From the IMG/VR virus record IMGVR_UViG_3300021963_000369, positions 1 to 35,133 of that record: a stretch of DNA of 35,133 nt. One strand, given 5' to 3'. The stretch comes from a virus. The position numbers were made by a program, and so were the translations under genes. Every line of letters begins with the position of its first letter. The first letter of the stretch is position 1. Under the pieces are notes generated by a model that saw only the letters and a list, made by a program, of their open reading frames with translations, was not told where the DNA came from and searched no databases. Shown in pieces: positions 7,901 through 35,133 of this stretch.

Positions 7901-10900
7901 TGCAATAAGGATTGCACATTGACAAGGCTAAAAGAATTAGGTCCTGTAAACGCAATATACTTGTATCCATAACCTCTTGGGTTTTCAATTAGAATTGAAA
8001 CATCCATGGCTGACATAGAACGTCCCAAAACATTTGGAACTGTTTTTTTATTTTTAACCCAGAAGTAGTATGTATTTTTAAAACTTTTTGCTACACTATC
8101 GTATTTTCTCACAAGTGCATAGACATTGTTCCCGTATAGACTTGTACCACTTATTCCAAAAGCAATACCTTCTTCTGTATCGGCAAGACTATTCCATTTT
8201 TCTGGTGTATATTTTGTTTCAACCCATTCGTATATGTCAATACTTGCACCTGGGAAGATAGTATTCCATGTACTATTTCGATAAACTAAATCAGCGTCAT
8301 AGCTATCGAGGAACTTGGCGGTTCTCAAATCCCACCATAAAGTTCCAACATATTGTTTTGTCCAAGCCATTCCTTCATCAACATTTACTGCGCTATCGCC
8401 TACACTATAAATTGCAGGGTCGTAAAATGTTTTAAATTTAATTTCTTGGTCGGCAATTCCTGGAATTTTTCCCTGTGTTGAATCTATAACATCAAGATAA
8501 GTTACTAACTTGTTGGTAGATTTATTATACAAGAATGCTCGTTTAATTTTGCTAATGTCAACACGACTACTTTGCTGTCTTGAAATAGTCCAACTAAACT
8601 GATTATTTGGTTTTCTATACTCGTATACTTTTCCTGATTGATAAGTTTGATCTACAGCGTTTGGAGATCCTACAAGAATCTGATTAGAACCAACAGCAAG
8701 GCTTGTACTATACCCAGCTAACATGTCGTCAGTATTTTCCAATGTTTCACTGTAAATCCATTTAGTTGCATAACGGTCATATACATCAATGCGTCCACTA
8801 TCTGCAATTAAATCATATACTTTTGTTAAATCGTTATCAAACGTTGTTAATCCTTGGTCAAAATTTGTTTTAATTAAATTGTCAGCACCTTTACTAAAAA
8901 CAATCAAAGATTGATAGTCATTCATAAAGGCTATTTTAGTCCCAAACAGCCCTGCTACTTCTGTTTTAGGATTGAATAACTCGTGTACTAATTCGTATCC
9001 ACTATTATCTTGATAGACAAAAACTGTTCCTTGGTCAATCTTTTGATTGTCATTTAGCACAGAAGAAATAGCAATATACTGTCCTGAATTAGAAACAGTT
9101 ATGCTTGATCCAAAACCATATTCTGTCCCTGAAATTGTTTGATATAAAGAATATACATCGTTCAATTTTTTATAAACAAACACATATCCCGCAGTTAATA
9201 TATCTTCGTTAGGACGATCAACTCCTAGTGTGGAAACTAACAATGTAGTATTATCAGAACTCATAGACATTGCATACCCAAAATTGCTATATTGAGGTAG
9301 TATTAAATGATCTAACGTATTGTTTAAATTGTATCTCCAACTAGTAGTAGTAAATTCAATCTTACCTGACGGGATAGTGTCTGGCTCTGCACTAACAATT
9401 ATTGAGTTAGTTGCTTGATTGATCTGTGCTACATACTGACCGCTTTCAAAGCCAATACCTTTTAAATACATTCCGACTTCGATTCCAGCTGTGCTACTTA
9501 ATACTACAGTAGTGCCTGAACTTCCAGTTGGGTTATAGGATGTGCTTACTTCCGTAACTGTTTTATAATCCAATCTGTAAACATTTCCAGTTTGCATATT
9601 AAAGCCGCTTGCGCCAACAAATAATGTATTGTCCCCGAATACTAAATTAGATCCAAATTGCTGGCTGTCGGTTGGTAGCGGACTTAATATTGTTGCTTCT
9701 AAAGTGAAGATATTGTTATTATCTTTTTTATAAATTGATATAACACCTTGATTATCTAGACCTGAATTGCTTCCGCTGCTGTCAACTGGAATATATGCAA
9801 TAGATTTCCAGTAAATTTTTGCATCGCCTGATACTACAACTGCTGCAATAGGACCCACAGTTGTACCACCAACAATTGATGTTACTTTAATTAGAATATT
9901 GTTTGCAGGAGCAGTTCCTCCAACTGATGTTCCTAAAATTCTAATAGTATCGCCAACTGCGTAAGAATTTCCACTAGAAACAATAGATGCAGAATAGTTA
10001 AATTTATTAGTAACAATAGTAAATGTTGCACCAATGCCTGCGCCAGTCAATGCTGTTCCACTTATTCCAGTGTAAGTATTAGATATAGTTAAAGGATCTT
10101 TATTTAAAGAAGAAGAAACAGCGACATAAGGCAATGAATTTTTAATTACAATTTGCCCGATAGAATAACTAGTTGCTGGACTCCACACGCCGACATATTT
10201 GCTACAAACGCTAGATGCTAACGGAGTTCCTGTTGCTAACCATGTGCTATCTGATGATAACGCTACAAAGTCTCCAGTTACTGATTGAGCTGTGTCTGAG
10301 TATCCAAATCCGCTTGTTGTCGAAATAAACGGTGCTGTGATTGTTTGACGTTGTAACCATGGAGCAGTTGGACTTGCTTTATCAAATACGATTGTTTCGC
10401 CTTTTCTATTGGTAATAATTGCTAACGTGCCTTCTGGATTTAAAACAATCTGTCTTCCGTAAAATAATCCATCTTCGGGTGCAGTATTAACAATTTCATC
10501 TTTTGAGTAAATTGTGTTATGTTTCCATACTGCCCATTTGCCATTGCCGCCGTCGTCTGTCCACAAATATTCACCGTCATTCACTGGCAATGTTAGTTTA
10601 GTATCAGCAATGTCAATAGAACTTGTTCTCGAAGAAGTAAAATAGCTAAGAGTTATCCTGTGTTGTTCAGTAAATATTTTTGGTTGATCTTTTAAATCAG
10701 CTATTACTGTTATAACTTTTCCTAAGACTGATTTTATTTCAAAGAAACCGTTATAAGCAAATGCTTGGTCAATACCTAAATATTTGCCTAAATCGACAGT
10801 TACACTATCTGTTAATGTTATTATTATTTGATTTTGTTTATATTCTAAGTTAGCAACTGTAGAAGTAAATCTTGTGTACTTGTAAATGTTCCACTCACGA

Positions 10901-13900
10901 CCTTCAAATCCAACCCAGACATAATTGCCTTCTACAAAATTAGTGACATCTTGATTAAGAATTTCGTCAAAAGTTTTTAACGTAACTTTTACATCGCCCG
11001 ACCTGACATATCCTGGTGTTCTTAAATATAAATTGTTATTAGTAGTTAATGGCCACGGATTATTGTTGTACCCTATCGGTTTTAAGTACACATCGTTTGG
11101 AATTTGTCTAACAATAAAATCGACTAGTGTGTCGTCTACACGATTTACTAATTCAAATCCCTGTGGATTATTTTTTACATATTGTTCGTCTATTGTAAAT
11201 TCGATGTTTTCAAAAGATCCGCTTGCACCGTATTGTCCAACACGAATTGCCCACTCTTCATAAAATTTTACGCTTTCTTGGCCGTCAGCACTTAGTACAT
11301 CAAACAGTTTATTAAGTACATTCTTAGTGCCTTTTTCTACAATCATACCTTGATAGAATTTAAACTCGCTCACATCATCTTGAATAATATTACTCAAATA
11401 TTGACGTTTTTGATATCCAATTAAATGTTGGGCAACTGCTTGTTGATCCGCATCAAAATTATCGCTATCTAAACTATAAAAATCTTCAAACTGTGTTGCT
11501 TTATAACTCCAGTTTGGCAATAACTTAGAAGAAGGCTTGCTATCTAATTTCATCCAACTATTAGAGTCAAATGTTTCTGAGCCAGAAATGAAAAACTTTG
11601 CTGTATAATAAAATTGCTTAAACTTAATTATATCACCAAGTGAATAATCTTTCCATGGTTCCCACTCTTGTATTACTGCTTGGTCAAAAATAAACCCAGG
11701 AACATTAAAATCTCCGCGCCAATTACTGCTTATATACCCAGCAACTTTAATGCGCTCTTGCCTAAATCCGCTTGAAGGACTATAGATTGTATCATTGAAT
11801 AATGTAGAATTTTTTAATACTACAACTTGTTCTTTCTGGACTAGATAAAATACTGCACCATATATACCGTCGGAAACAGGAGTATAACTTACTGCGTTTT
11901 CATCTCTATAATTGTTTAAAAAGTTTGGAGAAATTGGTGAGCCGTCAACTTTAAAAATTTCATATCCGTTGAAGGGATTACGAATGTCGTCAACAATTGA
12001 CAAATTAGCATTAAATGTTAAGTTAGTTGCTGCTGGACTCAAACTAATAACTGAGCTACCAATTGAACTTAATCCGTCTAATTTAATATAATCTTCTTGG
12101 TCGAAGACTGACGCAGGTTCTAAAGTGTTAGTAGCTCGGTAGTACTCTCCATTATACTTTACAATATCTCCTAAGTTAACTGGCTGATTAGCTGACCAAT
12201 TATCCCACTTGTCTTGCCCTGTACTCCAATTCTGTGTTGTCCAGAATAGGAATTCTTTAGCACTTGTTTCCCAGTTTGTAATAGCAGCCATTTCTGAATT
12301 AAAATTATCAAATACAAAACCTTGATCTTTTAAATATTCTCCGTAGCCTAATAAGAAATCCACAACGTCTTGAATTGTTCTTAATTTAGTTCCGTATGGG
12401 ACTGTTATTTCTTCAGTATTGTCCCACCCTTGTCGGAAATACGCATCGCGGCCGCCAATAATTGGCAATGAAGGCAATAATGTATAGTAGACTGGATTAA
12501 ACGAATCTTCAGTAGTGTGAAGAGTTTTAACTCTATAATAACGGTTGTTAAACGCTACAATTTTTCCTGCTGAATATTGCGAGTCAGAAGTCCAATTAGA
12601 GAAACTTTCTGAAATGCCTCCAACGTTTATTAAAATTCCATTTTTTGTATAATTGTAATATTTAAAATATGGTTGAGTTTTATTGTATCCTCTTAGAACG
12701 AATCCGTCAGATAACTTAGTAATAATTACACCGCTATAAGTAATTTTCTTTATAGGGCTTGAAGTATTTAAAATAATATCATAGTCTTCTTGGGGAACAA
12801 ATACACTACCTGAAGTAGAAGGTGTTTTACTATCTAACAATAATTTAAATTTTTCTTTGCTAGTAAATCCACCAATACGATGTGTTAGTCTAATTTGAAT
12901 GTTTTGTAAATCATAAGAGTATTGTTTATAAGACTTTAAATTATCACTTTGAATATAGTCTACAATATAATTTATAATCCCGCTAGTTTTAATATTTGTT
13001 GTACTTGTGTATATGCTTGGCAATAAAATATCAGAAGGTTTAATTCTTAAACCAGTATCTTTATAAACTAATTGTCCTGCTATATCTCGAACAATTCTAG
13101 ATCTATCTAATAGTAATCCAAATGTTTTAGCAGGACATGTTAGTAATAGAGTAATCAATATACTGAAAGGATAATGGCTACTACGTCTCCATGCGCTCTC
13201 TACTGGACTTACGTCACCAAATATAAAGTCTCCTGAAGTAGAAGCTGTAATTACTCCGCTAGCTAAACCGGACTCTAGAGGACTAATTAATTCACCGTTT
13301 TCATTAACAGGTAAATGGCCTTTTAAGTATGGTCTAATATATTTTTTATTTTGCTCTGGAGGTGTTCCTGGTTTTCTAACAATACCTTCTGACAAATCAT
13401 CCCATAAGATTAAATTGTTATTTGTGTACGGTGCTGGACCATACACAGTTTTCCACCATGTTGGTTCTTCACTAAAACCTAGAATTTCCCAAGGACATAG
13501 ATGAGGACGATCTGTTCCTAACATCCAACGATGAATTCCTTTCCAATATCCTGGTAAGGGTGTACGCCCGTCAGGGGTAGACATTTCACGATAATTGTAA
13601 GTTTTTGAATCTTCAGAATTATAATTTAACTGCTTAGTAAAATCTTGTTCGATTGCATTTGACCAAGTGTAAAAATACGACGAAAGAACTTGATCAAACT
13701 CTTCTCGAGAATAAGAATGCTTTCTGTTATATGCAGGCAAGTAATCATTGATGTCAAAAATTGAAACATCATACTTAACTTTAATATTATTATAAATTCT
13801 CTTTTCTAATTCTAAAATTAAGTTGTCGCGGAAGTCGCCATACGCTAATACTTGACTACCGTCGTGACCTTGTATCATTAATCTTGGAGTGACTAAACTT

Positions 13901-16878
13901 GTGTCAAGATAAATTTTTGGTTCGTATTTTGGCCATAATCCTAATTTAGTAGGAGTAGGAGGAATGAAAGATCCGTTAGTATTTTCAAATTCGTAAATTG
14001 TAATTTTATCGTCGGTAGCTATAGTAGCCAAAATTACTACAAATCCTTGATCGTTAAACGAATAATCTCTACCATATAATAAGTGTTCGTCGTTTAGATA
14101 AACTAGTACTGCACTACTTGAAAGAGAATCTAAATTAAATGTGTTTGTCAAAGGATATGTCTTGATTCTATAATCAAATACATACAACTCTGTTTTAACT
14201 CCTCCGTTGAACGGAGCCATATCACTAAAATAATAAGAAGAAGTTTTTGGTTTATCTTTTGTTATTTCTTGAAGAATTAGATTTACTTGTCTAACAGTAT
14301 CAGTGTCTACTCCTAGTTTACCGGCTGTTATAATAAAATTTCGTTTAAACTGAATATAATCTTGCTGGCTGCTTTCAATTGACTTAATAACATTATTTGT
14401 TTGCGAAGTCAAATGATATGCTGATAAACTGATCGGACCGCTGTGTTGAACAAATCTTGTTCCGTAAGGTGTAACGTTTCCTAGGTCTCGAATATTACTT
14501 GGTCCTGGAAATTCGCCAGTAAATGTATTTTGAATATTATCGACTATTGAGTTAACATGTGATGAAATTTCGCCAAGTGTAAAATCTAAAATGTCTGCAT
14601 TCAATGGATTATTTTGTAACCCAATAGGCATTTCATAAAAACCGTTTGTATTAATTGGTTGCGAAGAAAATGCTTTAATTGTTAAAATATCAGTAGTTAA
14701 AATGTCATTTGTTAAAACAATTTTTTTATAATATGTTCCGTCGACAACCGACCAATATTGCTTACTTAAACGGTTTCCATTAATGTAAACTCTAACTTCA
14801 AGATCTTCTAAATCTAAAATATTATCAAATATGTCAATGTCAAAATTATTTAAAATTTGTTCTCTTACATTGTTAACTGTTTTAAATTCAGTCTTGTAAA
14901 TTCTAACAGCTGGTTGGTTACGTACAGCTTTTGATATTTGCCATCCGTTAACAAATTCTGTTTTATTTGAAGAAATCGTCTTTAATAAGTACCCAACATT
15001 AACTTGTTTTTCAATAACATAAGAAACTTCTTTGTATTGGAAACTGTCTGATACAATGTTAAAGTTAAAAACAATATCTCCAATGTTATCTATATTTTTA
15101 TAAGATAATGGAAATCCCAAACTTGAGTCGTTTGTTCCTGAACCTGATTTATAAGAAAACAACTTTGTACCAATAAACGTACTACCATCATAAACAGTTT
15201 TGTCTCCAAAGCTATTTCCGTTAGCGTCAAACAAATCAAATAATGGTGCTTGATTCAAACTAGTTTTTTGCTGAGACTTGTTCCAAGTAGTACCGTCAAA
15301 CCAATATGTTAATCCTTGATTTTGTAAACCTTGTTTTACAAATACAGAATCTAGTTCGACTGGCATTTCTTGTTCTTCTAAATGTATCTGTCTATTGCCA
15401 TCTAATGTTAAAAAGTTAACTTTAAAAATTTTATTTTTAACACGGATATCGGTATCGGCTGGGAATAGAATTCGTTGTCCTTGAGCTAGCTCTATGCCGT
15501 CAATATTATAACCAATCTGTCCTTCAATCTTTGAAAAAATATCGGTAGTAAAAGTATCAATTAAATCAACGTCAGGAATAGACTTAGTTCCAAAATTAAA
15601 AAGTTTTAAGTTTGCTTCAAACTCAATGATTGGTCTGATTGCTCGTGCTGTTTGGTCAATACTTGCAATTTTTCCGTTGAATGTTGCGCTGGCTTCAATT
15701 ACATCCTTGTGTACCCATCTGTTGTAACGACTCCAAGGATTATAATCATTACTTTGTTTGTTAATTACAATATAGTCTTTTTTGCCAGCAAACGATGTTG
15801 AATCGCCAAACGGCACTGTATCAAATGGATCGTTGTCAAACAACACTGTCTGTGGAGTAGAGTATGGTCCGGTTAACTCTAATAAAGACTCAGGAACTAA
15901 CGCAATAGAGTCGCCTACACCTTCTACATAATATTGTCCAGATTTATAAGACTCAGGAATAACATTTCCAACAAACGATACTTTCATACCGTTGCTTAAT
16001 TCTGTTCCGTTACCTAATTTAAAAGTCTTTTTACCTAATAGGTCTGTAGTAAGGTCTAAAAATGAGTTTTCATCTAGTGGTAAAATTTGAAAGACGCCGC
16101 CCAAAACTACGTCCGTTTCGCTTACATAATATAGTAAGTCAGGTGAGTTCTGCGGAACAGTAAATTCAATAATACCATTTTCAACAGCATGTCCAGTAAT
16201 TGTTGATACTTCATATCTGTCGTTAGGACCTGCTGTTCTTGCAGTTTTAATTGAGAACGGATTTCCTGGACTGTTAATTTCAAATCTATAAGTTTGTCCT
16301 CTATATAATCTGATACTTGGGTTTTGAGTCAACCCTGTAGGAAAAAATACATAGGTATTGTTGTCAGCTTCTGGCTGAATTTCAACTTTGTAAGTACTTG
16401 TGATTTCTTGCTGTATGCCTGAAATTCTAATTACATCAGGGCCATATGGAAGCCAGTAGTACTGTTGGAAATTTACAAACTTGTCCCAGTTAATATGAGG
16501 ATCCCAGCTATAAAATTCTTGCTCGTTTAGTCGAGCATGATTTTTTATGTTTGCGCCAAAGACACCTAACTGATTAATATAGTCTTGATAATCTTTAAAA
16601 AATGTGGTATTATCTAAAGAATCTTTAACAACTAGTCCTGGTTCTAATTGATAGTCTTGTCGTGATTGTGTTGGCGCCTGAACAAAAATATCTTCGCCCG
16701 TTGTTGATTTAGAATTCTTTTTTCCAATATAACCGTTTACTTTTTTTACTGTGCCGGGTTGTATTAACTGATCAATAGTGGCTTGTAAAAACTTTTTATT
16801 GTCGTCAGTTCTATAATATTTTGGTAATAGTTCAGAACTAGATACTTTTCCACCATTTGGATTTGTTTTATCAGCCAT
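1957..16878 (-). CDS. Giant baseplate/tail structural protein in the gp7 position
   Basis: One uninterrupted frame of 4973 codons (roughly 550 kDa) fills 42% of the window. It begins inside the last codons of gp6 (8-base overlap, GGAG ribosome site), where T4 has gene 7 (1032 residues). Parts in order, with approximate residues: N-terminal conserved segment with WDPHINWDKFVNFQQYYWLP (122-142); a cupredoxin-like beta domain (172-267); NPWSRYNRWVHKDVI (near 375); a Trp/Pro-rich block with RPHLCPWEILGF (1100-1205); five W..xY..G(D/K)IV...YY modules resembling carbohydrate-binding modules (1429, 1557, 1736, 2233, 4808); a segment FEDFYSLDSDNFDADQQ (about 1790-1830); an FG-GAP-like beta-propeller (2130-2760); glycine-rich GSGY repeats (3142-3172, 3510-3583); a coiled coil (3955-4085); and a C-terminal beta region. 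Several blocks are familiar to me from large structural proteins of marine T4-like phages. The gp7 assignment rests on gene order and is not proven. Confidence 0.65.
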   Translation of the reverse strand: MADKTNPNGGKVSSSELLPKYYRTDDNKKFLQATIDQLIQPGTVKKVNGYIGKKNSKSTTGEDIFVQAPTQSRQDYQLEPGLVVKDSLDNTTFFKDYQDYINQLGVFGANIKNHARLNEQEFYSWDPHINWDKFVNFQQYYWLPYGPDVIRISGIQQEITSTYKVEIQPEADNNTYVFFPTGLTQNPSIRLYRGQTYRFEINSPGNPFSIKTARTAGPNDRYEVSTITGHAVENGIIEFTVPQNSPDLLYYVSETDVVLGGVFQILPLDENSFLDLTTDLLGKKTFKLGNGTELSNGMKVSFVGNVIPESYKSGQYYVEGVGDSIALVPESLLELTGPYSTPQTVLFDNDPFDTVPFGDSTSFAGKKDYIVINKQSNDYNPWSRYNRWVHKDVIEASATFNGKIASIDQTARAIRPIIEFEANLKLFNFGTKSIPDVDLIDTFTTDIFSKIEGQIGYNIDGIELAQGQRILFPADTDIRVKNKIFKVNFLTLDGNRQIHLEEQEMPVELDSVFVKQGLQNQGLTYWFDGTTWNKSQQKTSLNQAPLFDLFDANGNSFGDKTVYDGSTFIGTKLFSYKSGSGTNDSSLGFPLSYKNIDNIGDIVFNFNIVSDSFQYKEVSYVIEKQVNVGYLLKTISSNKTEFVNGWQISKAVRNQPAVRIYKTEFKTVNNVREQILNNFDIDIFDNILDLEDLEVRVYINGNRLSKQYWSVVDGTYYKKIVLTNDILTTDILTIKAFSSQPINTNGFYEMPIGLQNNPLNADILDFTLGEISSHVNSIVDNIQNTFTGEFPGPSNIRDLGNVTPYGTRFVQHSGPISLSAYHLTSQTNNVIKSIESSQQDYIQFKRNFIITAGKLGVDTDTVRQVNLILQEITKDKPKTSSYYFSDMAPFNGGVKTELYVFDYRIKTYPLTNTFNLDSLSSSAVLVYLNDEHLLYGRDYSFNDQGFVVILATIATDDKITIYEFENTNGSFIPPTPTKLGLWPKYEPKIYLDTSLVTPRLMIQGHDGSQVLAYGDFRDNLILELEKRIYNNIKVKYDVSIFDINDYLPAYNRKHSYSREEFDQVLSSYFYTWSNAIEQDFTKQLNYNSEDSKTYNYREMSTPDGRTPLPGYWKGIHRWMLGTDRPHLCPWEILGFSEEPTWWKTVYGPAPYTNNNLILWDDLSEGIVRKPGTPPEQNKKYIRPYLKGHLPVNENGELISPLESGLASGVITASTSGDFIFGDVSPVESAWRRSSHYPFSILITLLLTCPAKTFGLLLDRSRIVRDIAGQLVYKDTGLRIKPSDILLPSIYTSTTNIKTSGIINYIVDYIQSDNLKSYKQYSYDLQNIQIRLTHRIGGFTSKEKFKLLLDSKTPSTSGSVFVPQEDYDIILNTSSPIKKITYSGVIITKLSDGFVLRGYNKTQPYFKYYNYTKNGILINVGGISESFSNWTSDSQYSAGKIVAFNNRYYRVKTLHTTEDSFNPVYYTLLPSLPIIGGRDAYFRQGWDNTEEITVPYGTKLRTIQDVVDFLLGYGEYLKDQGFVFDNFNSEMAAITNWETSAKEFLFWTTQNWSTGQDKWDNWSANQPVNLGDIVKYNGEYYRATNTLEPASVFDQEDYIKLDGLSSIGSSVISLSPAATNLTFNANLSIVDDIRNPFNGYEIFKVDGSPISPNFLNNYRDENAVSYTPVSDGIYGAVFYLVQKEQVVVLKNSTLFNDTIYSPSSGFRQERIKVAGYISSNWRGDFNVPGFIFDQAVIQEWEPWKDYSLGDIIKFKQFYYTAKFFISGSETFDSNSWMKLDSKPSSKLLPNWSYKATQFEDFYSLDSDNFDADQQAVAQHLIGYQKRQYLSNIIQDDVSEFKFYQGMIVEKGTKNVLNKLFDVLSADGQESVKFYEEWAIRVGQYGASGSFENIEFTIDEQYVKNNPQGFELVNRVDDTLVDFIVRQIPNDVYLKPIGYNNNPWPLTTNNNLYLRTPGYVRSGDVKVTLKTFDEILNQDVTNFVEGNYVWVGFEGREWNIYKYTRFTSTVANLEYKQNQIIITLTDSVTVDLGKYLGIDQAFAYNGFFEIKSVLGKVITVIADLKDQPKIFTEQHRITLSYFTSSRTSSIDIADTKLTLPVNDGEYLWTDDGGNGKWAVWKHNTIYSKDEIVNTAPEDGLFYGRQIVLNPEGTLAIITNRKGETIVFDKASPTAPWLQRQTITAPFISTTSGFGYSDTAQSVTGDFVALSSDSTWLATGTPLASSVCSKYVGVWSPATSYSIGQIVIKNSLPYVAVSSSLNKDPLTISNTYTGISGTALTGAGIGATFTIVTNKFNYSASIVSSGNSYAVGDTIRILGTSVGGTAPANNILIKVTSIVGGTTVGPIAAVVVSGDAKIYWKSIAYIPVDSSGSNSGLDNQGVISIYKKDNNNIFTLEATILSPLPTDSQQFGSNLVFGDNTLFVGASGFNMQTGNVYRLDYKTVTEVSTSYNPTGSSGTTVVLSSTAGIEVGMYLKGIGFESGQYVAQINQATNSIIVSAEPDTIPSGKIEFTTTSWRYNLNNTLDHLILPQYSNFGYAMSMSSDNTTLLVSTLGVDRPNEDILTAGYVFVYKKLNDVYSLYQTISGTEYGFGSSITVSNSGQYIAISSVLNDNQKIDQGTVFVYQDNSGYELVHELFNPKTEVAGLFGTKIAFMNDYQSLIVFSKGADNLIKTNFDQGLTTFDNDLTKVYDLIADSGRIDVYDRYATKWIYSETLENTDDMLAGYSTSLAVGSNQILVGSPNAVDQTYQSGKVYEYRKPNNQFSWTISRQQSSRVDISKIKRAFLYNKSTNKLVTYLDVIDSTQGKIPGIADQEIKFKTFYDPAIYSVGDSAVNVDEGMAWTKQYVGTLWWDLRTAKFLDSYDADLVYRNSTWNTIFPGASIDIYEWVETKYTPEKWNSLADTEEGIAFGISGTSLYGNNVYALVRKYDSVAKSFKNTYYFWVKNKKTVPNVLGRSMSAMDVSILIENPRGYGYKYIAFTGPNSFSLVNVQSLLQDKDIILSVEYWTSPKTDKSIHSQWKIINNRSDTVIPATIEQKWFDSLCGKDSQGRVVPDSSLPPKLKYGIENRPRQSMFINRFEALKQFIESVNNALSTHLIVENSDISKISQFETEPSTITGQYDSTTDTDTELRFANIGTYEKPAFTPIIENGRIKGINIINKGRGYLIAPYFIISGAGTGAVVRAVIDVKGQIVGSEVVSEGYGYTADTLVTLRNYSVLVHSDSVAGGNWSIYSYEPTTQVWSRVRSQSYDVRKYWDYVDWYATGFNQFTAIDHSISSFSDLQQLEASVGQTVKIRTTTAGTWTLLEKYADSASIDWTQSYTVIGKEKGTLQFSSTLYEFSNSEFGFDGSLYDAGSFDNSAATELRIVLESLKNNILVDDLKEVYLNAFFNSVRYAFSEQNYIDWIFKTSFVKAQHSVGELKQKVTYNNDNLNNFEDYINEVKPYRTKVREYVSAYSKVDTNTLLTTDFDLPPVYENGVLSPITTQVVNGIIQSDNNKVLTEPWRQWYDNLGYSVISLDIVDGGSGYRAEPTVRIISDTGIGAVGRAFFTNGKVNRIVLLAAGSGYLSAPRVVLDGGLIDGGKPAKVVAKIGNGVVRSNLVKIKFDRITQKYFVTNLQETESFSGNTVVSGSRLQFPLKWAPDVRIGKTSVLIGELGKQVEVLRSDYKLAIVKSTTNGYTSYSGTITFNTAPKKGQIVTVTYIKDWSVLNAADRIQYYYDPATGELGKDLSQLMTGIDYGGVNIHGLNFDISSGWGSVPYYTDKWASFDSTFDDFVVTVAENTHSFTLPYVPEDGTEMNVYYVGKNVDTYTGDGFTLIYNFNINDVYPPKATVSISKTVDNTGLINVAGSDTIKLSNTTGIKIGDVLTITPDVSKTIAFATKVLSIVNSTTIKLDQILFKDIANGTTAVFTRTLVDPTDCTINPNGTLFLEEPIPVGATLDITAYINPIRLDDPNFTITGAAVAALDVLEGQYQTLILEKNSLTNDKNQIEALLETYNAQLASEQASLNAKLVVIDGMDPGNPLYSGIVSDINVLVNTTIPATQGLIEVGNNELAGVNADLSTNASARAAKQLQIDNATSALNNLTPLANDTAIMQTIISDGIPDSQVDPTYKTFSIPGTFDVYEGDQFIWRRAGSDGSSLPQEQDYDTALSGGDLAYSSATGIAADDIIVDGDGFVTPTSSPATEEVVPGQVVDAVAIKVYDRPNTGSANIRVDSYLADGVQTDFEISQQPNSPTAVIVKFTSGFRDPLTDVLSSVSSIKTISDDYTLDYKNKLIKFNTAPESGQLISIFSFGFNGSNILDLDYFVGDGSQVEFVTKAPWLENVNYLVYVNGQPAEPGTPGLFKTDASYESANRIGLFFSIPPSVGSIINFVIVSGEEQTYSITKTERIQGTGTNIYNLEYIVGDKLPAETNMLVRVNNKLLKGPNNSYYKITGTKVNYAIDSVKFLPYSLSINDIYVYAGGVLLKSGIDYIVELSGINIKITQNIRKQYLNQELIISIKQDQEYFYIPPDGINSAKIQFVQNYDPTDIIEVVSSYKHDILDIQRTGVNVTSNFELTPDTPEFYNYKGVAGGVILLDRTVIDDNYVWVVKNGLLLTPSADFKLNEDRKSIKLAFYPDPDDEFTIITYGSTILKSGISYMQFKDMLNRTHYKRLNANKRTVLVKDLKYLDTSIEVEDASTFDAPSVVNNKPGIIEIRGERIEFFTLQTKVDGGVTTYLLGQLRRGTLGTGVSKVHKRGSFVQDIGPSETIPYVETSITEQVKSDGTHIVPLTFIPTKSANDWSYAGGFTSSIPAGYGQSDDIEVFVGGYSSIPWEFNVEYNVDDIVEVGSYTFRCITAHTSSTTFREDNSYWTFFIGNIRLKKLPYKVHNVNNAPESPDGDVQLDAEFAVDGESKELRLTHQLAFGTRVTVVKRTGTAWDSTTNILEDDNKIARFLRAAPGIWYSNIGKYESKAGIPSTFDSSAGTFDSTSITFDQE

Positions 16879-22334: not shown

Positions 22335-24491
22335 TTATTTTCCTTTTTCCGCCGGGGTTTGTGAGTTAAGAGTATTTGCGCCTGTGCCTTGCTTCTTAAA
22401 TTCTTGACCATTACGTCTAAATCCTTTTAGTGTTTGACTAAACAAACCGTTTCTAAAACTGTTGGTTACCATGTTGACGCAATATAAACCAGTAAATCCA
22501 ATAGCTGGCCCAGCTTTAGGATCTTTAGTCATGTCTTGATGATTAGGTCCTTTAAAATCATACAATCCAGTTGTTTGATTTATATCAATAGGACTTCTAA
22601 AATTGACTATTACATCTACTTCGCTTGTTTGCCAACTGACTGATCCATCTTTGTTTAAATCTTTAACTCCTTGAATAGGTTTAGCATTATAATTACCCAT
22701 ACCGCTTGAAACAATCCAGAAAGGGTCCCCCATAATTTCTAAATCTAAAACTACCATGTCATATGGATTTGTAATTGCGTCATGGAACGTTTTGGCAACT
22801 CGTTGAGTAGTAGTTTCTTGGCCGCCGCCGCCTTTGCCGTCTCCGGATGTTTTTGTAGCAGCGTTGTTTTGTTGTCCTGGGTTTTGCCCTGGAACAGTTG
22901 GTGGCGCAGAACCTTCTGGAGAAGCGTCAATACTTTTAGGTTTTTGATCGTCTGCATTTCCTGTAGTTTCTTGCCTTGTAACGTCTGTTGAGTTTGTATA
23001 ACTGTCAGCTGCGAAAGAGTTAGCAAAACCTAAACTAAAATCAATATTAAATTTTAATACTTCTGTATTTTTTCCAGTAAACAAATAATCATATCTTTTA
23101 ACAGCTCTTGCTTTTAATTGATCGAATCCTGGCATTGCTACGTTAGGACCTGCGGTTTTACTAAGATGTACTTTAAAAGGAACAACTCTATAAACTGCAA
23201 TCTTTGGCATCTTGCCAGTCTTTGTGTAATTTTCTTTAGAGTCAATGTAATAAATTTGTGTGTCAATACGCCACCAAGTAACCATTCCGTTACTGTCAGC
23301 GGCGCCAGGCTTTAAAGCAGCGTCTGCGTATGAACTTGATAAGATAATTTGATTAATTACCGTTGGAATATCCATATCTTGGCTAAACTTAAACGTACCA
23401 GTTTTAGCATCTGCTATCAGTTTTCCGCGAAGCCAAGTTTTTGTAGTAGGATCCCATGTGTCTGCTTGATTGCCTGGAGGAGGGTCGCCTCTTCTTTTTT
23501 GATCAAAGCCCATTGTTTGAGATCCAATTTCATTAACTGCCGATGCTGATTGTTGTAGTGTACTTGCACTAACTCCTAACTTTTTAAAAATTTCTGTTGA
23601 ACCAGGAGATAGTTGAGGATTAACATATGCTTTGTTAGTTTTAGATTCGCTACCACCGCTGGCCGCTGGTGCCGATGCACTTGGTTGTGAATCTTCTTTA
23701 GGAAATAATATTACGACTTGGTCAGCAACTTTAACATCACCTTTTTTTACGTATTCTTGCAATTTGTTATTAACAACTGTTTGCAAACTTTGTTCGCCTG
23801 TTTGCAAAACTTCTTGAATTGTTTGTCCTTTGATAACTGTATCTGTTCTTAAGTTTGCAAATTCAGTTGTTAAAGCCATACCTTGTGCGGCATAGGCGTT
23901 TATGTTATAGCGTGTTCCTTGTTCAGTTGAATTCATTTTAACGGTTGTTAACTTTACAGGAATATGCCTTGCTGAAAACGGAACTTTTAAAATAGCACCG
24001 TTTTCTGTATTTCCTCTAAATTCAATTGACAGTAAAAACGGAGCATCTCTCCAGTTGTCATGGCCTGCAGCACTAGCGGCTTTTTGTAAGGCTAACATGA
24101 ACAATCCAATACTATACGGCTCGTAAACATCAAATTGTATTATTGACACGTTAGTTGCTTTTTCTGTTTGATATCCTATTAAAGATTCAAAGGTTAAGTT
24201 ATTAATAAAAAAATCGTGTTTGCCGTAGTTGGTCATAATCCTGTTGTCAGGATCTGCTCCGGCAGTTTTACAAACGATTGGCAAAACTTTTCCTGCTTTA
24301 TACGAGCTATCAGGAAAATTAAATTCATTAACTGTCAACGGATGCAAGGAAATAATATAGTTATAACTTGCATAGTTTGATAAAATGTTTGGAGCAGGTA
24401 AACTTAGGCCGCCTGGAATTGCTCCAAAACTTGCACCAAGGGTCGAGGCTGTACTTAAAAGATTTGTTGTTGCTCCAATAATGTCCGCCAT
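22335..24491 (-). CDS. Baseplate hub-type structural protein, possibly gp27 counterpart
   Basis: This 718-residue protein lies between gp53 and gp5. Its ribosome site AGGAG is inside the last codons of gp53, one base before the start. The N-terminal third (about 40-240) is a compact alpha/beta region (YNYIISLHPLTVNEFNFPD, then KVLPIVCKTAGADPDNRI). Two low-complexity linkers follow: Ser/Ala/Gly-rich at about 265-285, and Pro/Gln/Gly-rich at about 511-563. The C-terminus (about 565-700) has VDVIVNFRSPIDIN and FTGLYCVNMVTNSFRNGLF, a pattern familiar from tail proteins of marine T4-like phages. Direct adjacency to the spike gene suggests the hub that carries gp5, as gp27 does in T4, but I cannot show sequence similarity to T4 gp27. 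No enzyme motif is seen. Confidence 0.5.
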   Translation of the reverse strand: MADIIGATTNLLSTASTLGASFGAIPGGLSLPAPNILSNYASYNYIISLHPLTVNEFNFPDSSYKAGKVLPIVCKTAGADPDNRIMTNYGKHDFFINNLTFESLIGYQTEKATNVSIIQFDVYEPYSIGLFMLALQKAASAAGHDNWRDAPFLLSIEFRGNTENGAILKVPFSARHIPVKLTTVKMNSTEQGTRYNINAYAAQGMALTTEFANLRTDTVIKGQTIQEVLQTGEQSLQTVVNNKLQEYVKKGDVKVADQVVILFPKEDSQPSASAPAASGGSESKTNKAYVNPQLSPGSTEIFKKLGVSASTLQQSASAVNEIGSQTMGFDQKRRGDPPPGNQADTWDPTTKTWLRGKLIADAKTGTFKFSQDMDIPTVINQIILSSSYADAALKPGAADSNGMVTWWRIDTQIYYIDSKENYTKTGKMPKIAVYRVVPFKVHLSKTAGPNVAMPGFDQLKARAVKRYDYLFTGKNTEVLKFNIDFSLGFANSFAADSYTNSTDVTRQETTGNADDQKPKSIDASPEGSAPPTVPGQNPGQQNNAATKTSGDGKGGGGQETTTQRVAKTFHDAITNPYDMVVLDLEIMGDPFWIVSSGMGNYNAKPIQGVKDLNKDGSVSWQTSEVDVIVNFRSPIDINQTTGLYDFKGPNHQDMTKDPKAGPAIGFTGLYCVNMVTNSFRNGLFSQTLKGFRRNGQEFKKQGTGANTLNSQTPAEKGK

Positions 24492-30537: not shown

Positions 30538-30981
30538 ATGTCATGGACTTATCAAAATAATACAGTTGAATCGTTGCCCGAAGATTGTATAGGGTTCGTG
30601 TACATAATCACAAATACTATCTCTGGACGCAAATACATAGGCAAGAAGTTAGCAAAATTTAGCAAAACCACATACAAAACAGTAAAACTTAAAAACGGCA
30701 ACAAAAAGAAAAAGAAAATACGCAACAAAATTGACAGCGACTGGCGCGAATATTATGGTTCAAGTCCGGAACTTACCAAGGATGTTGTGGCATTAGGCAC
30801 AGAAAACTTCTCCAGAGAAATACTTTTTTACTGTAAATCCAAAGCAGAATGTAGTTATATCGAGGCTCGTGAACAGTTTAGTCGTCGTGTACTAGAATCA
30901 AATGACTATTATAATGGCCATATTCAAGTACGTGTACATGGTTCACACATTAAGAAACTTCAAGAAAATCAGGCAAAATAA
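30538..30981 (+). CDS. GIY-YIG family nuclease
   Basis: This 147-residue protein has the signature near its N-terminus: GFVY (19-22) and KYIGKK (32-37), spaced ten residues apart as in GIY-YIG nucleases. A basic block follows (LKNGNKKKKKIRNKI, 51-65), then DWREYYGSSPEL (68-79), and a helix with candidate metal-binding Glu109 or Glu112 (YIEAREQF). It may be a free-standing nuclease like the T4 Seg enzymes or endonuclease II. No clear ribosome site precedes the ATG, which lies 15 bases after the preceding stop. The adjoining non-coding region is rich in hairpins, so a homing role was considered, but no split gene is visible. Confidence 0.7.
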   Translation: MSWTYQNNTVESLPEDCIGFVYIITNTISGRKYIGKKLAKFSKTTYKTVKLKNGNKKKKKIRNKIDSDWREYYGSSPELTKDVVALGTENFSREILFYCKSKAECSYIEAREQFSRRVLESNDYYNGHIQVRVHGSHIKKLQENQAK

Positions 30982-31404
30982 AGCGGTTTAGGCTCAGCGC
31001 AGGCCAATGTCATGCGCCCTTATACCTGGATCACGGATCGCAGGGACGGAAAACTCTTGCCGCCAAGAGTACTCAGCAACTACCCGAAAGGATGTCGATC
31101 GCTTCTAAGACCTGCGATTTTGCTGTTTGAAAAGAATTTAAAGGCAAAATGAGGGAGAAAAACCCACGGCTACAAGTATGTTAACGTATACTTTTAGACC
31201 CGCCGTTGTATAAGACTCAGCTCGTGGTACCGGACAACCGCCACTGTAATGCTGTAACGTTAAGTGAACTGCTCAACTCAGATAATGTTCATTTTTTAGC
31301 CCGCAAGGGCTAAGTGTGACTACACAATCTAGATAATATCTTAACGCTTCGCGTTTATAATAATATTGAAAAAAGAAGAATAGTTCGAGCTGAAAGCGAA
31401 GAAC

Positions 31405-31458: not shown

Positions 31459-32481
31459 ATGAAAATATACGACATCATCTCAGAATCGCAACAACTTAAT
31501 GAAAATGTCATAATCATGAGTGGATTTAGACAGATATTAAAATATGTTGCTTCACGTAACGGTCAAGGTCTTGAACATGCCATGGAATGGATTGCTAGAC
31601 GTTTAGCAGGTAAAGAAAATGCCGCTGAACAACTGGCTGAAGCATGGATCTTGGCAGCTGAGAAAGTTGGTATAGCAGAAGCAGAAGCAATTGCCATGGG
31701 CGCACAAAAAGCTGCTAGAGCTGGTATCGGTGATGATGTTATTACTGCGGCACAACGAGCTGCTGAAAAATTAATTGAAAAACGAGCAGGATCAATTTGG
31801 GGACAGCTGAAAACTCCTGAAAGCAAACTTAATTTTTACTACGGTTTAACTTTTAAGACTATAAACCAAGGACTTATGTTTTGGGGCATTGGCGAGCCAA
31901 TTTATAAGTGTGTTACTAGTATTTTAAACGCTTACGAATTACGTGATTCTGGAGATCCAGAATTAAAAGATCCAGCCAAGTTACAATGGGTAGTTCAGTA
32001 TTACATTGATCAGTGTGTGAAACAAGTTGTATCATTGTGGTTAGGCAACAAAATTGTTAATAAAGTTATAGGCAAATGGGTTCCTGGTATAGCGTACAAC
32101 ATTCCTATTGCAGGACCGCTTATTCAAAAGTTAGATCCAATTTATTCAAAAGTTCCACCTGCAACATTAGTTGCATTTAAAAGTTGGATGATCAGTAATG
32201 AAGGCCAGGAAGCATTGGCCAAGTGGCTAGTTGGACAAGCTCTAGTACCATATACAGATTGGAAGATTCCTGGCGGACCAACTTATCAGAAATTAATTTT
32301 GGATCCGTTAGGTGGAATAGCTATGACTGGCTATAACAAGATATTAAAATGGACCGGTTCTGACAAGATGATTCCTGAACCTGGGCAAAAGAAGGATGAT
32401 AAAGGGGCAAACGAACCTGAAAACACAGGTCCTGACAACTACAATCCTGGATTAAGAGGAGCTAAGACACCTAACTATTAA
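31459..32481 (+). CDS. Putative internal head protein with capsid-targeting N-terminus
   Basis: I recognise no domain in this 340-residue protein. The first residues, MKIYDIISE then SQ, resemble the capsid-targeting sequence of T4 internal proteins (MKTYQEFIAE) and end in I-x-E, the cleavage consensus (L/I)xE of the T4 prohead protease gp21. Residues 30-115 are Ala/Glu/Lys-rich and helical (ENAAEQLAEAWILAAEKVGI). Residues 125-260 are more hydrophobic (TINQGLMFWGIGEPIYKC, WVPGIAYNIPIAGPLI) without a clear membrane span. The last 40 residues are Pro/Asn/Gly-rich and probably disordered. If the signal is real, the protein is packed in the head, trimmed after Glu9 and injected with the DNA. It has its own late box, and its stop overlaps the opposing reading frame. 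It could instead be a minor structural protein. Confidence 0.55.
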   Translation: MKIYDIISESQQLNENVIIMSGFRQILKYVASRNGQGLEHAMEWIARRLAGKENAAEQLAEAWILAAEKVGIAEAEAIAMGAQKAARAGIGDDVITAAQRAAEKLIEKRAGSIWGQLKTPESKLNFYYGLTFKTINQGLMFWGIGEPIYKCVTSILNAYELRDSGDPELKDPAKLQWVVQYYIDQCVKQVVSLWLGNKIVNKVIGKWVPGIAYNIPIAGPLIQKLDPIYSKVPPATLVAFKSWMISNEGQEALAKWLVGQALVPYTDWKIPGGPTYQKLILDPLGGIAMTGYNKILKWTGSDKMIPEPGQKKDDKGANEPENTGPDNYNPGLRGAKTPNY

Positions 32482-32714
32482 AGCAAGGGCATATTAGTTT
32501 CTTTGCTTAACTCCATATTTTCTTTAACTACAGCGTACATAGAATCTCTGTCGTCAAAGCTGTACTGATGCAGTAATTGATCTACTGTAACTCCGCCTCT
32601 CATGTACCAGCTTAGTCTTATTAATTCTGTTTTAAAATCTTTTGCTTCTTTTTCTAGCCTAACTAGACGTTCTTCAATTTTAGAGGCGTTTAATCCAATT
32701 AGGCTTTGTCGAAA
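32478..32714 (-). CDS. -1 frame extension of gp26 (gp51-like part of a frameshift fusion)
   Basis: In the -1 frame relative to gp26 the sequence is open from the slippery site to TAA at 32480-32478, 78 codons. The product continues as RQSLIGLNASKIEERLVRLE, then helical KEAKDFKTELIRLSWYMRGG, and ends SKETNMPLL. There is no ATG, GTG or TTG start in this frame between an upstream in-frame stop (near 32737) and the Met at 32603, which lies inside the helical region. Translation therefore needs either a -1 frameshift (fusion of about 349 residues) or a rare ATT start (32699-32697). Its stop overlaps that of the opposing gene, leaving no other use for these 220 bases. In T4, genes 26 and 51 are adjacent near the tape-measure gene, so a gp51-like role is suggested by position only. 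Confidence 0.6.
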   Translation of the reverse strand, partial: FRQSLIGLNASKIEERLVRLEKEAKDFKTELIRLSWYMRGGVTVDQLLHQYSFDDRDSMYAVVKENMELSKETNMPLL

Positions 32715-33526
32715 AAATTTGATTGATCTAACTCAATTAACACTTGATCTTCGTGACCACAGTTAATACATTTAACAGTTTGCGAAGGAGGAATCCAACG
32801 TTTTCTGTTTTCCTCCATGTGTGCTTTGACACGGTCAACAACTTCTAAATCAATATTGTTAACCCATTCTTCAATAAACTCTCGCTCGGTTACCACTACC
32901 TTGCCAGTGTCAATGCTTTCAATACCAGCTGTGAACAAATCATTACGCAAGATTGTTAGCTCTTCAAAGATACTAGCACTGGCTTTTTGTTGTTCGTCAA
33001 CATCGGTTAAATTGTTTATTTGATATAATTTTTGTTGTATGCCAAAATTTCTCAAAGCAAATTCTGTATTTTGTCTATAGTTTAACGGGCGTATTACAAC
33101 AGATAATTCATCAAGAACTACTCTATTGTCGTACTGACAACTAGAATAATGTTCAATAAATGATGTAAGTTCTAGTGCGTAGTCTTGAGCTGTGTCACAT
33201 TTTGAACATTTGTGGCCTACAGTTAGTTCGTTACCAAAGGTAGCAATACGGATAGCTGATAAAATCAAGTCTAAATCAACTAATGACACTTGCCACGGAT
33301 CGGTTATAGCAGGACAACAACTGTTAATTACCTTTGCTGTGCTTTCTCCTGTTAATAACGCATCTGGCGTCTTAAACAAAATCTCGTCCATACCAGTCAT
33401 ACCAAATATTGGCAATCTATTTGGATCACCATTAATAACGCCAGGTGCATAATAAATGCCTTGACTTGGAAGACTTACAAAGATTTTAGGTTGTCTAAAA
33501 TACTGCTGTAAGGGATTGTTTGCCAT
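32699..33526 (-). CDS. 26: Baseplate hub/tail assembly protein gp26
   Basis: This 275-residue protein has the N-terminus NPLQQYFRQPKIFVSLPSQG and the block MTGMDEILFKTPDALLTGES (45-62) followed by SCCPAI, which I associate with gp26-type hub assembly proteins of marine T4-like phages (T4 gp26 has 208 residues). Two CxxC pairs, Cys107/Cys110 and Cys253/Cys256, 143 residues apart, could form one zinc ribbon bridging both ends of the chain. A GGAG ribosome site and the exact late box TATAAATA lie upstream. The gene ends on overlapping slippery heptamers that would extend it in the -1 frame. The divergent neighbour is a tape-measure-like gene, which fits an assembly role for the tail tube and hub. 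Confidence 0.72.
   Translation of the reverse strand: MANNPLQQYFRQPKIFVSLPSQGIYYAPGVINGDPNRLPIFGMTGMDEILFKTPDALLTGESTAKVINSCCPAITDPWQVSLVDLDLILSAIRIATFGNELTVGHKCSKCDTAQDYALELTSFIEHYSSCQYDNRVVLDELSVVIRPLNYRQNTEFALRNFGIQQKLYQINNLTDVDEQQKASASIFEELTILRNDLFTAGIESIDTGKVVVTEREFIEEWVNNIDLEVVDRVKAHMEENRKRWIPPSQTVKCINCGHEDQVLIELDQSNFFDKA
32711..32720 (-). other. Candidate -1 ribosomal frameshift site
   Basis: On the minus strand the gp26 codons read TCA AAT TTT TTC GAC. They contain two X XXY YYZ heptamers in the correct frame, A AAT TTT (32720-32714) and T TTT TTC (32717-32711). A shift back by one base bypasses the gp26 stop four codons later and enters the 78-codon extension. Only a weak TAAT/ATTA hairpin (loop TGG) is visible downstream, and no strong pseudoknot. 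Confidence 0.6.
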
Positions 33527-33589: not shown

Positions 33590-35133
33590 ATGGCATTAGA
33601 AGATAGAGTTGAACGGTTAGCATCGGCACTTGAACGCATGTTGGATCAAGGCAGCTTTTCTGGTGTGCGCAACACTGGCGGAACAAACAACACAGGCGGC
33701 CGCGGTGATGTAGACTATGATCGTATGGGTCAAACTGCTGGACAGTTTGTCAACACACTAGGCCAAGCAGCTCAAGGAAATACCAATTTAGTAGGAGTGA
33801 TGAGAGAAGTCAACTCCGTTCTCGGAAACTTTGGTCCAGCAATTGGAGCCATTAGCAATGTTGCTACAGCAGTGGGCACTAACCTAGTTCAAATGAACCA
33901 AAACATGATGGCCTCGTCAAAGTTTGGCATGGGCTTCAGTCAAAGTATTGGACGATTCACTGAAGAATTAGGTAAAGCAGGTATAGCACAAGAGCAGTGG
34001 GTTAATCTTTTACAGTCTAATTCGAAATATCTAAGTGGTAGTGCATCATCTGCACAAGAAGCTGCAGAGTTATTCCTTAAACAAAATCAAGAATTACGTT
34101 CAGAAAAAGCAGTACAACAGGCCATTTTATCAGGAATTGATTTTAGTGAGTTTCAAGATCAATTATTGATTAACACTAATTTAATGAAGTTTCAAGCAAT
34201 TGAAGAAAAAAGGACACAAAAAATATTACAAGAATCTGTAGTTACTACTGTTGGTGAACTTGATAATATGGCACGTATTACTGGTAAAAGCAGACAAGAA
34301 ATACAAAAAGGTGTAGACCAACAGCAACAGACAAACACAATGCGTATAGCAAGATTGTCGATGGGCGTAGAACAGTTAGCTAGATACAACGAATCATTAC
34401 CAAAAATAACTTCTTATGGTACTGCATTTGCCAGTTTGTTTACAGAAATGTCTGCAAACAGAGGTAATGTTGTTTCAAGACAAGGCACTGAAATGCAAGC
34501 TGCTTTGAATTTAGTTGCTCCAGGTGTTGGCAACATAATGCGAGAGTTGAGTCAAGAAACAAATAAAGAACGTAGAGCAGAGTTACAAGCTAGAATTGAT
34601 TACGAAATGGCCAAAGCAATCTCTGATGAAAAAGCCATGGAAAGGTTTAATGCTATGGCTGAAAGAACAGAGCCAGGTATAAGACAAGCAGTTGAAATGC
34701 TCATGCAAGGTGAAGGAATTCTTGCTGCTAACAAAGAACTGTTAGCTAAAACAGATGGCACTATCGGAGACTTTACAAAACTTCAAGAAGCACAAAGAGC
34801 CAAAGCAAAAACAGAAGGGACACCGGCCGGTGCTGGAGCAACTGAAGAAAACGCCACATCTGTTGCAATACGAGCTGCACAAGAAGGGTTAAAAACTATA
34901 GCTGCTGGACTAGCTATGGGAACTAAAGAAGGATTAGACAAACTTGGAAAAGAAATAACAGATGCTATGAAACCTGAAACTTTCTTGACAGCATTTAAGA
35001 CTCAGGCAATAACTCCAGAAAATTTAATAAAAGCATTAAAAGAAGCAACTGGATATGTTGGAACATCAACTACTCCAGGCACTATGCCAATCTCGCCAGA
35101 ATTAGCAAATAAATTAAACATCGATTCGTCAAC
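33590..35133 (+). CDS. Tape-measure-like tail protein, C-terminus outside window
   Basis: The frame is open from the ATG at 33590 to the right edge (514 complete codons, no stop). A helical start (EDRVERLASALERMLDQG) is followed by a Gly/Asn/Thr-rich linker. A long, mostly helical, Gln/Ala/Gly-rich region follows, with NLVGVMREVNSVLGNFGP and AIGAISNVATAVGTNLVQ, typical of phage tape-measure proteins that fill the tail tube. Further on are long charged helices (QETNKERRAELQARI). I see no peptidase or lysozyme motif in the visible part. The position beside gp26, whose frameshift resembles tail-assembly chaperones normally encoded next to the tape measure, supports the call. It could be another long virion protein, since the total length is unknown. 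Confidence 0.5.
   Translation, partial: MALEDRVERLASALERMLDQGSFSGVRNTGGTNNTGGRGDVDYDRMGQTAGQFVNTLGQAAQGNTNLVGVMREVNSVLGNFGPAIGAISNVATAVGTNLVQMNQNMMASSKFGMGFSQSIGRFTEELGKAGIAQEQWVNLLQSNSKYLSGSASSAQEAAELFLKQNQELRSEKAVQQAILSGIDFSEFQDQLLINTNLMKFQAIEEKRTQKILQESVVTTVGELDNMARITGKSRQEIQKGVDQQQQTNTMRIARLSMGVEQLARYNESLPKITSYGTAFASLFTEMSANRGNVVSRQGTEMQAALNLVAPGVGNIMRELSQETNKERRAELQARIDYEMAKAISDEKAMERFNAMAERTEPGIRQAVEMLMQGEGILAANKELLAKTDGTIGDFTKLQEAQRAKAKTEGTPAGAGATEENATSVAIRAAQEGLKTIAAGLAMGTKEGLDKLGKEITDAMKPETFLTAFKTQAITPENLIKALKEATGYVGTSTTPGTMPISPELANKLNIDSS

Follow-up and report, generated by a model that had tools for sequence, protein, structure and literature searches.

The window, the whole stretch of 35,133 nucleotides of the IMG/VR virus record IMGVR_UViG_3300021963_000369, carries a gp26-type gene that is flanked by a converging gene on one side and by a divergent, probable tape-measure gene on the other (Table 1). 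The gp26-type gene matches PF12322 (T4_baseplate) with an E-value of 3.1e-15 and 56.9 bits, above the curated cut-off of 24.5, and the baseplate hub family phrog_150 with an E-value of 2e-14. Its product was modelled by AlphaFold (pLDDT 88), and the matches of the model in BFVD are T4-like baseplate hub proteins, down to Gp26 of Aeromonas phage 25. The same model has no match in the PDB at E <= 0.001, so that the solved fold of the tail-assembly chaperones (e.g. HK97 gp13) is not recovered, and sequence searches for homologues of solved structure, done for gp26 and for the extension described below, found none. The 3' end of the gene reads ...GAT CAA TCA AAT TTT TTC GAC AAA GCC TAA, with the 0-frame TAA at 32699-32701 (minus strand).

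Table 1. Features of the gp26 locus (positions are those of the window).
Feature	Position	Strand	Reading and remarks
Converging gene, unknown function	31459..32481	+	Stop overlaps the stop of the -1 frame; most relatives share this arrangement
-1 frame extension, 77 codons + TAA	32478..32711	-	Putative C-terminal domain of the long form (GT or gp51-like; TAC-NC)
Stem-loop downstream of the heptamer	32656..32705	-	Predicted from covariation, RNAalifold and folding z-scores
gp26-type gene	32699..33526	-	275 aa; putative short chaperone form (lambda gpG-like; TAC-N)
Slippery heptamer T_TTT_TTC	32711..32717	-	Predicted shift site; in frame in the window and in 63/63 readable IMG/VR relatives
Second in-frame heptamer A_AAT_TTT	32714..32720	-	Missing from many relatives that keep T_TTT_TTC
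Probable tape-measure protein, N-terminal part	33590..35131	+	Divergent from gp26; truncated at the window edge; identified via relatives

The tape-measure assignment was made through a family of homologous genes of 673-1434 aa, which are located between the portal gene and gp26, are divergent from gp26, and have members linked by BLAST. Two members (L042 and L043) match PHROG tape measure families (E 7.7e-6 and 7.1e-7) and carry a GPELVVP motif, and the RaK2 counterpart is annotated as tape-measure-like. The PHROG tape-measure match of a further member (L023) was discounted, as it sits in a low-complexity PK-rich repeat. Since the window ORF belongs to this family between portal and gp26, the gp26-type gene lies next to the probable tape-measure gene. 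An earlier sequence-only reading of the window had drawn a parallel with chaperone genes located just before the tape-measure gene; here the probable tape-measure gene is divergent and not downstream. Within the single clade of L042, L043, L023 and L001, the lengths of the probable tape-measure proteins range between 673 and 1434 aa, a spread that suggests widely different tail lengths.

Other features of the wider neighbourhood are recorded here for completeness. A SegE-type GIY-YIG endonuclease is encoded at 30538-30978 on the plus strand (PF19835, E 1.7e-32), and T4 segE is likewise found in the gene 25/26 neighbourhood. A full-length Polynucleobacter-1 RNA (Rfam RF01718, 107 bits, E 1.7e-22) is present at 30992-31128 (plus strand), flanked by the SegE-like gene and by the converging gene of Table 1. 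A single ORF of 4973 aa occupies positions 1957-16878 on the minus strand and follows several baseplate genes, among them a gp25-like one.

Two heptamers had been noticed in frame near the end of gp26, A_AAT_TTT and T_TTT_TTC, and both are indeed present in the window sequence. Their conservation is very different. A scan of viral_contigs yielded 67 loci, and the gp26 3' end was readable in 63 of them, which share between 83% and about 33% identity with the window. T_TTT_TTC is kept in frame in all 63, at 10 to 43 nt upstream of the 0-frame stop, and is also found in the first three jumbo phages that were compared; its presence is therefore far from chance. Elsewhere in these gp26 genes, phenylalanine is encoded by TTT 616 times and by TTC 99 times (14% TTC, n = 715), whereas at the slip site TTT as the first Phe codon and TTC as the second are each used in 67 of 67 cases. 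The preceding codon always ends in T, despite encoding a variable residue (N, S, H or D). A_AAT_TTT is unconserved among the relatives and was ruled out as the shift site. Of the two proposed heptamers, T_TTT_TTC is thus the operative one, and A_AAT_TTT is probably not needed for the shift.

Homopolymer runs are prone to sequencing error, and it could be argued that gp26 and the extension are in truth a single frame, disrupted by an indel in the window or by decay of the gene. The register is identical across 63 contigs and complete reference phages, with varying distances to the 0-frame stop. Because the relatives share the register, this explanation is refuted, and we consider its probability negligible.

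Ribosomes that slip by -1 at T_TTT_TTC would go on with CGA CAA AGC CTA ATT GGA and further codons, 77 in all. The -1 frame has its upstream stop at 32733-32735 and its terminal TAA at 32478-32480 (minus strand). It had been described as 78 codons long and as filling the space to the opposing gene; it is open up to that gene, with overlapping stops, but comprises 77 codons and the TAA. The predicted fusion has 272 + 77 = 349 aa when computed from the window sequence, as anticipated. The frame was also expected to be devoid of ATG, GTG and TTG codons ahead of an internal methionine, and this is the case: the earliest is an ATG at 32601-32603, which encodes residue 37 of the extension, inside a WYMRGG motif.

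Comparison with the relatives leaves little doubt that the -1 frame is coding. The alignment of gp26 loci, which the sequence-only reading had recommended as a check, was carried out and shows that both T_TTT_TTC and the start-less -1 frame are conserved, with strong purifying selection. In the relatives, the extension has 77 codons without indels, except in L055 and L011, where the frame is truncated or altered, and the WYMRGG motif recurs. Pairwise omega values of the extension are between 0.05 and 0.42, with pN/pS similar to gp26. In the other two frames of the same DNA, pN/pS values are mostly 0.6-2.8 (one is 4.9), and there are stops in every sequence. Residues R1, K27 and W35 of the extension, all ahead of any possible start, are invariant in alignment A3. 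The conserved -1 frame thus predicts a long form that would share its N-terminal domain with the short form. Modelled alone by AlphaFold, the extension consists of three helices (pLDDT 90); a PHROG search with it returned only matches at chance level.

The extension could instead be a separate small gp51-like gene with its own start, reached by translational coupling or by ribosomes that reinitiate past the gp26 stop. Several T4-like phages (P-SSM2, S-PM2, KVP40 and Cr30) have a -1 frame ATG that overlaps the gp26 stop or comes shortly after it, and a small ORF is annotated at the extension in some records, e.g. gene 595 of 121Q. In the window, however, the first potential start at residue 37 lacks an SD sequence, and the residues that precede it are conserved and under selection. 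Start positions vary among the relatives, and none is conserved. A separate gene would also leave the invariant T_TTT_TTC unexplained. We therefore regard it as very unlikely, and favour translation of the extension by a -1 shift.

A conserved stem is predicted downstream of the heptamer. Its 10 bp pair 32695-32704 with 32657-32666, begin 6 nt after the heptamer, and include the gp26 TAA. Among 23 distinct sequences, 90% of the cells are paired, and 18 cells are doubly changed, compared to 6.6 in shuffles; the covariation score is 0.281, versus 0.164 for shuffled data. Pairing collapses when the partners are slid by 1-3 columns, and the RNAalifold consensus independently recovers the inner 10 pairs. 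The best covarying column pair, 21-54, is U-A in 15 sequences, A-U in 6, and G-C and U-G in one each, with the 3' partner at the third position of a -1 frame codon. The 80 nt downstream of the slip site have a mean folding z-score of -2.45 (27 sequences, mononucleotide shuffles), in comparison to -0.47 for gp26 control stretches. For the window alone, z is about -3 for 80 nt, and a modest -1.85 for a 103-nt stretch with dinucleotide shuffling. Most of the closer relatives are predicted to fold a stem within 80 nt past the slip site. No stem was seen at the corresponding position in L039, L041 or L044, or in the sampled members of the more distant IMG/VR group L048-L063, and it is therefore not essential across the family. 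With respect to SD-like stimulators, there is no good one in the window, where the best candidate reaches about -2.2 kcal/mol.

The stem also bears on the possibility that RNA polymerase slips on the T6 run and produces a fused message. The six-T run is invariant in the family, but six T followed by an invariant in-frame C suits tandem tRNA slippage. Transcriptional slippage normally requires longer runs. The covarying RNA stem 6 nt downstream, and the SD-like sites in relatives, are putative stimulators of ribosomal frameshifting. Polymerase slippage thus appears extremely unlikely. The programmed -1 shift at the end of gp26 that had been proposed is borne out by the conserved site, the conserved start-less -1 frame and the stem, and ribosomes almost certainly slip back by one base at this place, as judged from sequence comparison.

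The same arrangement recurs in other phages. The gp26 genes of Atu_ph07, 121Q, PA5oct, Phosso, RaK2, XaC1, XacN1 and BF likewise end in a slip site, with a -1 ORF of about 70-80 codons that has few potential starts; in XacN1, the slip site reads TTTTTTT. TTTTTTC, TTTTTTT or TTTTTTG, together with a -1 ORF, is present in eight other T4-like phages, P-SSM2, S-PM2, HTVC008M, Cr30, phiM12, KVP40, phiW14 and phiM9. Several of the phages with this design have an SD-like GGAGG about 9 nt upstream of the slip site. In place of the window-type stem, the cyanophages and Cr30 have GGAGGG at this distance, and some have a hairpin downstream. In Ackermannvirus Vi01 (L088), the end of the PF12322 gene has a gp51-like -1 ORF without a standard slippery heptamer.

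When whole records were searched for PF12322, one gene was found in each of those with a predicted frameshift, and two in T4 and in Campylobacter phage CP81. The T4 genes are 26 and 51. T4 gp51 consists of a PF12322 domain and a C-terminus for which hhalign gives a match (E 2.9e-7, prob 93) to the cyanophage-type -1 ORFs. In CP81 (L080, record positions 23086-24200), the two PF12322 genes are adjacent on the same strand, and the second has a gp51-like C-terminus. The extensions of the window clade match those of the jumbo phages (hhalign E 9.5e-16), and all extensions pooled have a weak match (E 4e-4, prob 34) to the cyanophage-type ORFs. A direct hhalign comparison of the window extension with T4 gp51 was negative, and the likeness is seen only via intermediates. 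The earlier description of the product as a gp26-gp51-like fusion is acceptable in this indirect sense. The link that it drew between gp26/gp51 and the G/GT chaperone system agrees with the paralogy of the T4 proteins and with the probable tape-measure neighbour.

Taken together, the comparisons make it very probable that the gp26 gene of this uncultured T4-like phage specifies a short and a long tail-assembly chaperone by means of a -1 slip. Most ribosomes would terminate at the gp26 TAA and release the 275-aa short chaperone. A minority would slip by -1 on T_TTT_TTC, with tRNA-Phe in both the P and A sites, and the stem-loop 6 nt past the heptamer probably slows the ribosome. A slipped ribosome would decode CGA next and continue for 77 codons, to yield the 349-aa long chaperone, which has an additional helical domain. 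If the pair works like lambda gpG and gpGT, the tape-measure protein may be coated by many short copies and few long ones, and the additional domain of the long form may attract partners from the tail tube or the hub. T4 would make the equivalent pair from two paralogous genes, with gp26 as the short and gp51 as the long form. We infer the occurrence of shifting, its rate and the chaperone role of the gp26 products from sequence. With somewhat more confidence than doubt, we suggest that the T_TTT_TTC shift is the ancestral source of the gp26/gp51 pair throughout the T4 superfamily, jumbo relatives included, that T4 and Campylobacter phages have replaced it by duplication, and that the window clade has evolved a covarying stem, with the gp26 stop codon inside it, which tunes the ratio of short to long form.

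G-T frameshifting has been described as widespread except in T4 (Atkins et al. 2016, PMC5009743). T4 gp26 and gp51 were earlier listed as hub assembly chaperones, with roles that were long disputed (PMC3004832). As summarized in PMC10885494 and PMC12846349, Vladimirov et al. 2022 identified the chaperones of T4-like phages. According to the account in the PRFect paper (PMC10885494), some of these phages dispense with frameshifting and have a short gene alongside a longer, fused one, and PMC12846349 attributes to the same work poly-T slippery sequences in T4-like TAC-N genes. A chaperone pair made by a -1 slip is standard in tailed phages and, according to these accounts, already reported for T4-like phages. 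Since T4-like chaperones and poly-T slips are, by the same accounts, already published, the finding is real but ordinary in kind. New here are the uncultured lineage and the covarying stem. Current records name the gene baseplate hub and miss the long product, and a simple annotation fix would apply to several jumbo phages and cyanophages. The stem provides a natural RNA element for testing. The comparison suggests that the T4-like hub proteins gp26 and gp51 are the two forms, short and long, of the tail-assembly chaperone, and that a single ribosomal slip can stand in for a two-gene duplication and vice versa.

Of the features by which a G/GT-type locus is recognized, the window has a conserved in-frame X_XXY_YYZ heptamer near the 3' end, a start-less -1 ORF under purifying selection, and a predicted stimulatory element, the covarying stem 6 nt downstream. 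The similarity to lambda G/GT (TAC-N/TAC-NC) lies in the -1 slip near the end of the chaperone gene, the start-less C-terminal extension and the adjacent, probable tape-measure gene. In contrast to lambda, the gene is unrelated in sequence (PF12322, Zn-ribbon-like), the heptamer is T_TTT_TTC, the probable tape-measure gene is divergent, and the search of solved structures gave no fold match. The TAC locus of Vandenendeviridae and Andersonviridae (GTTTTT, PMC12846349) shares the poly-T -1 shift in a myophage chaperone gene and the start-less -1 frame, but belongs to other phage families, and the likeness is one of locus description, not of protein comparison. The gp26 loci of cyanophages, KVP40 and 121Q/RaK2/Atu_ph07 have the same gene, a poly-T slip and a -1 ORF. 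They differ in their stimulators, which are SD-like and upstream in several, and are annotated as baseplate hub with either nothing or a hypothetical protein next to it. T4 gp26 and gp51 belong to the same family, gp26 matching the short form and gp51 having the extension-type C-terminus, but in T4 they are two paralogous genes, whereas the window has a single gene with a predicted frameshift.
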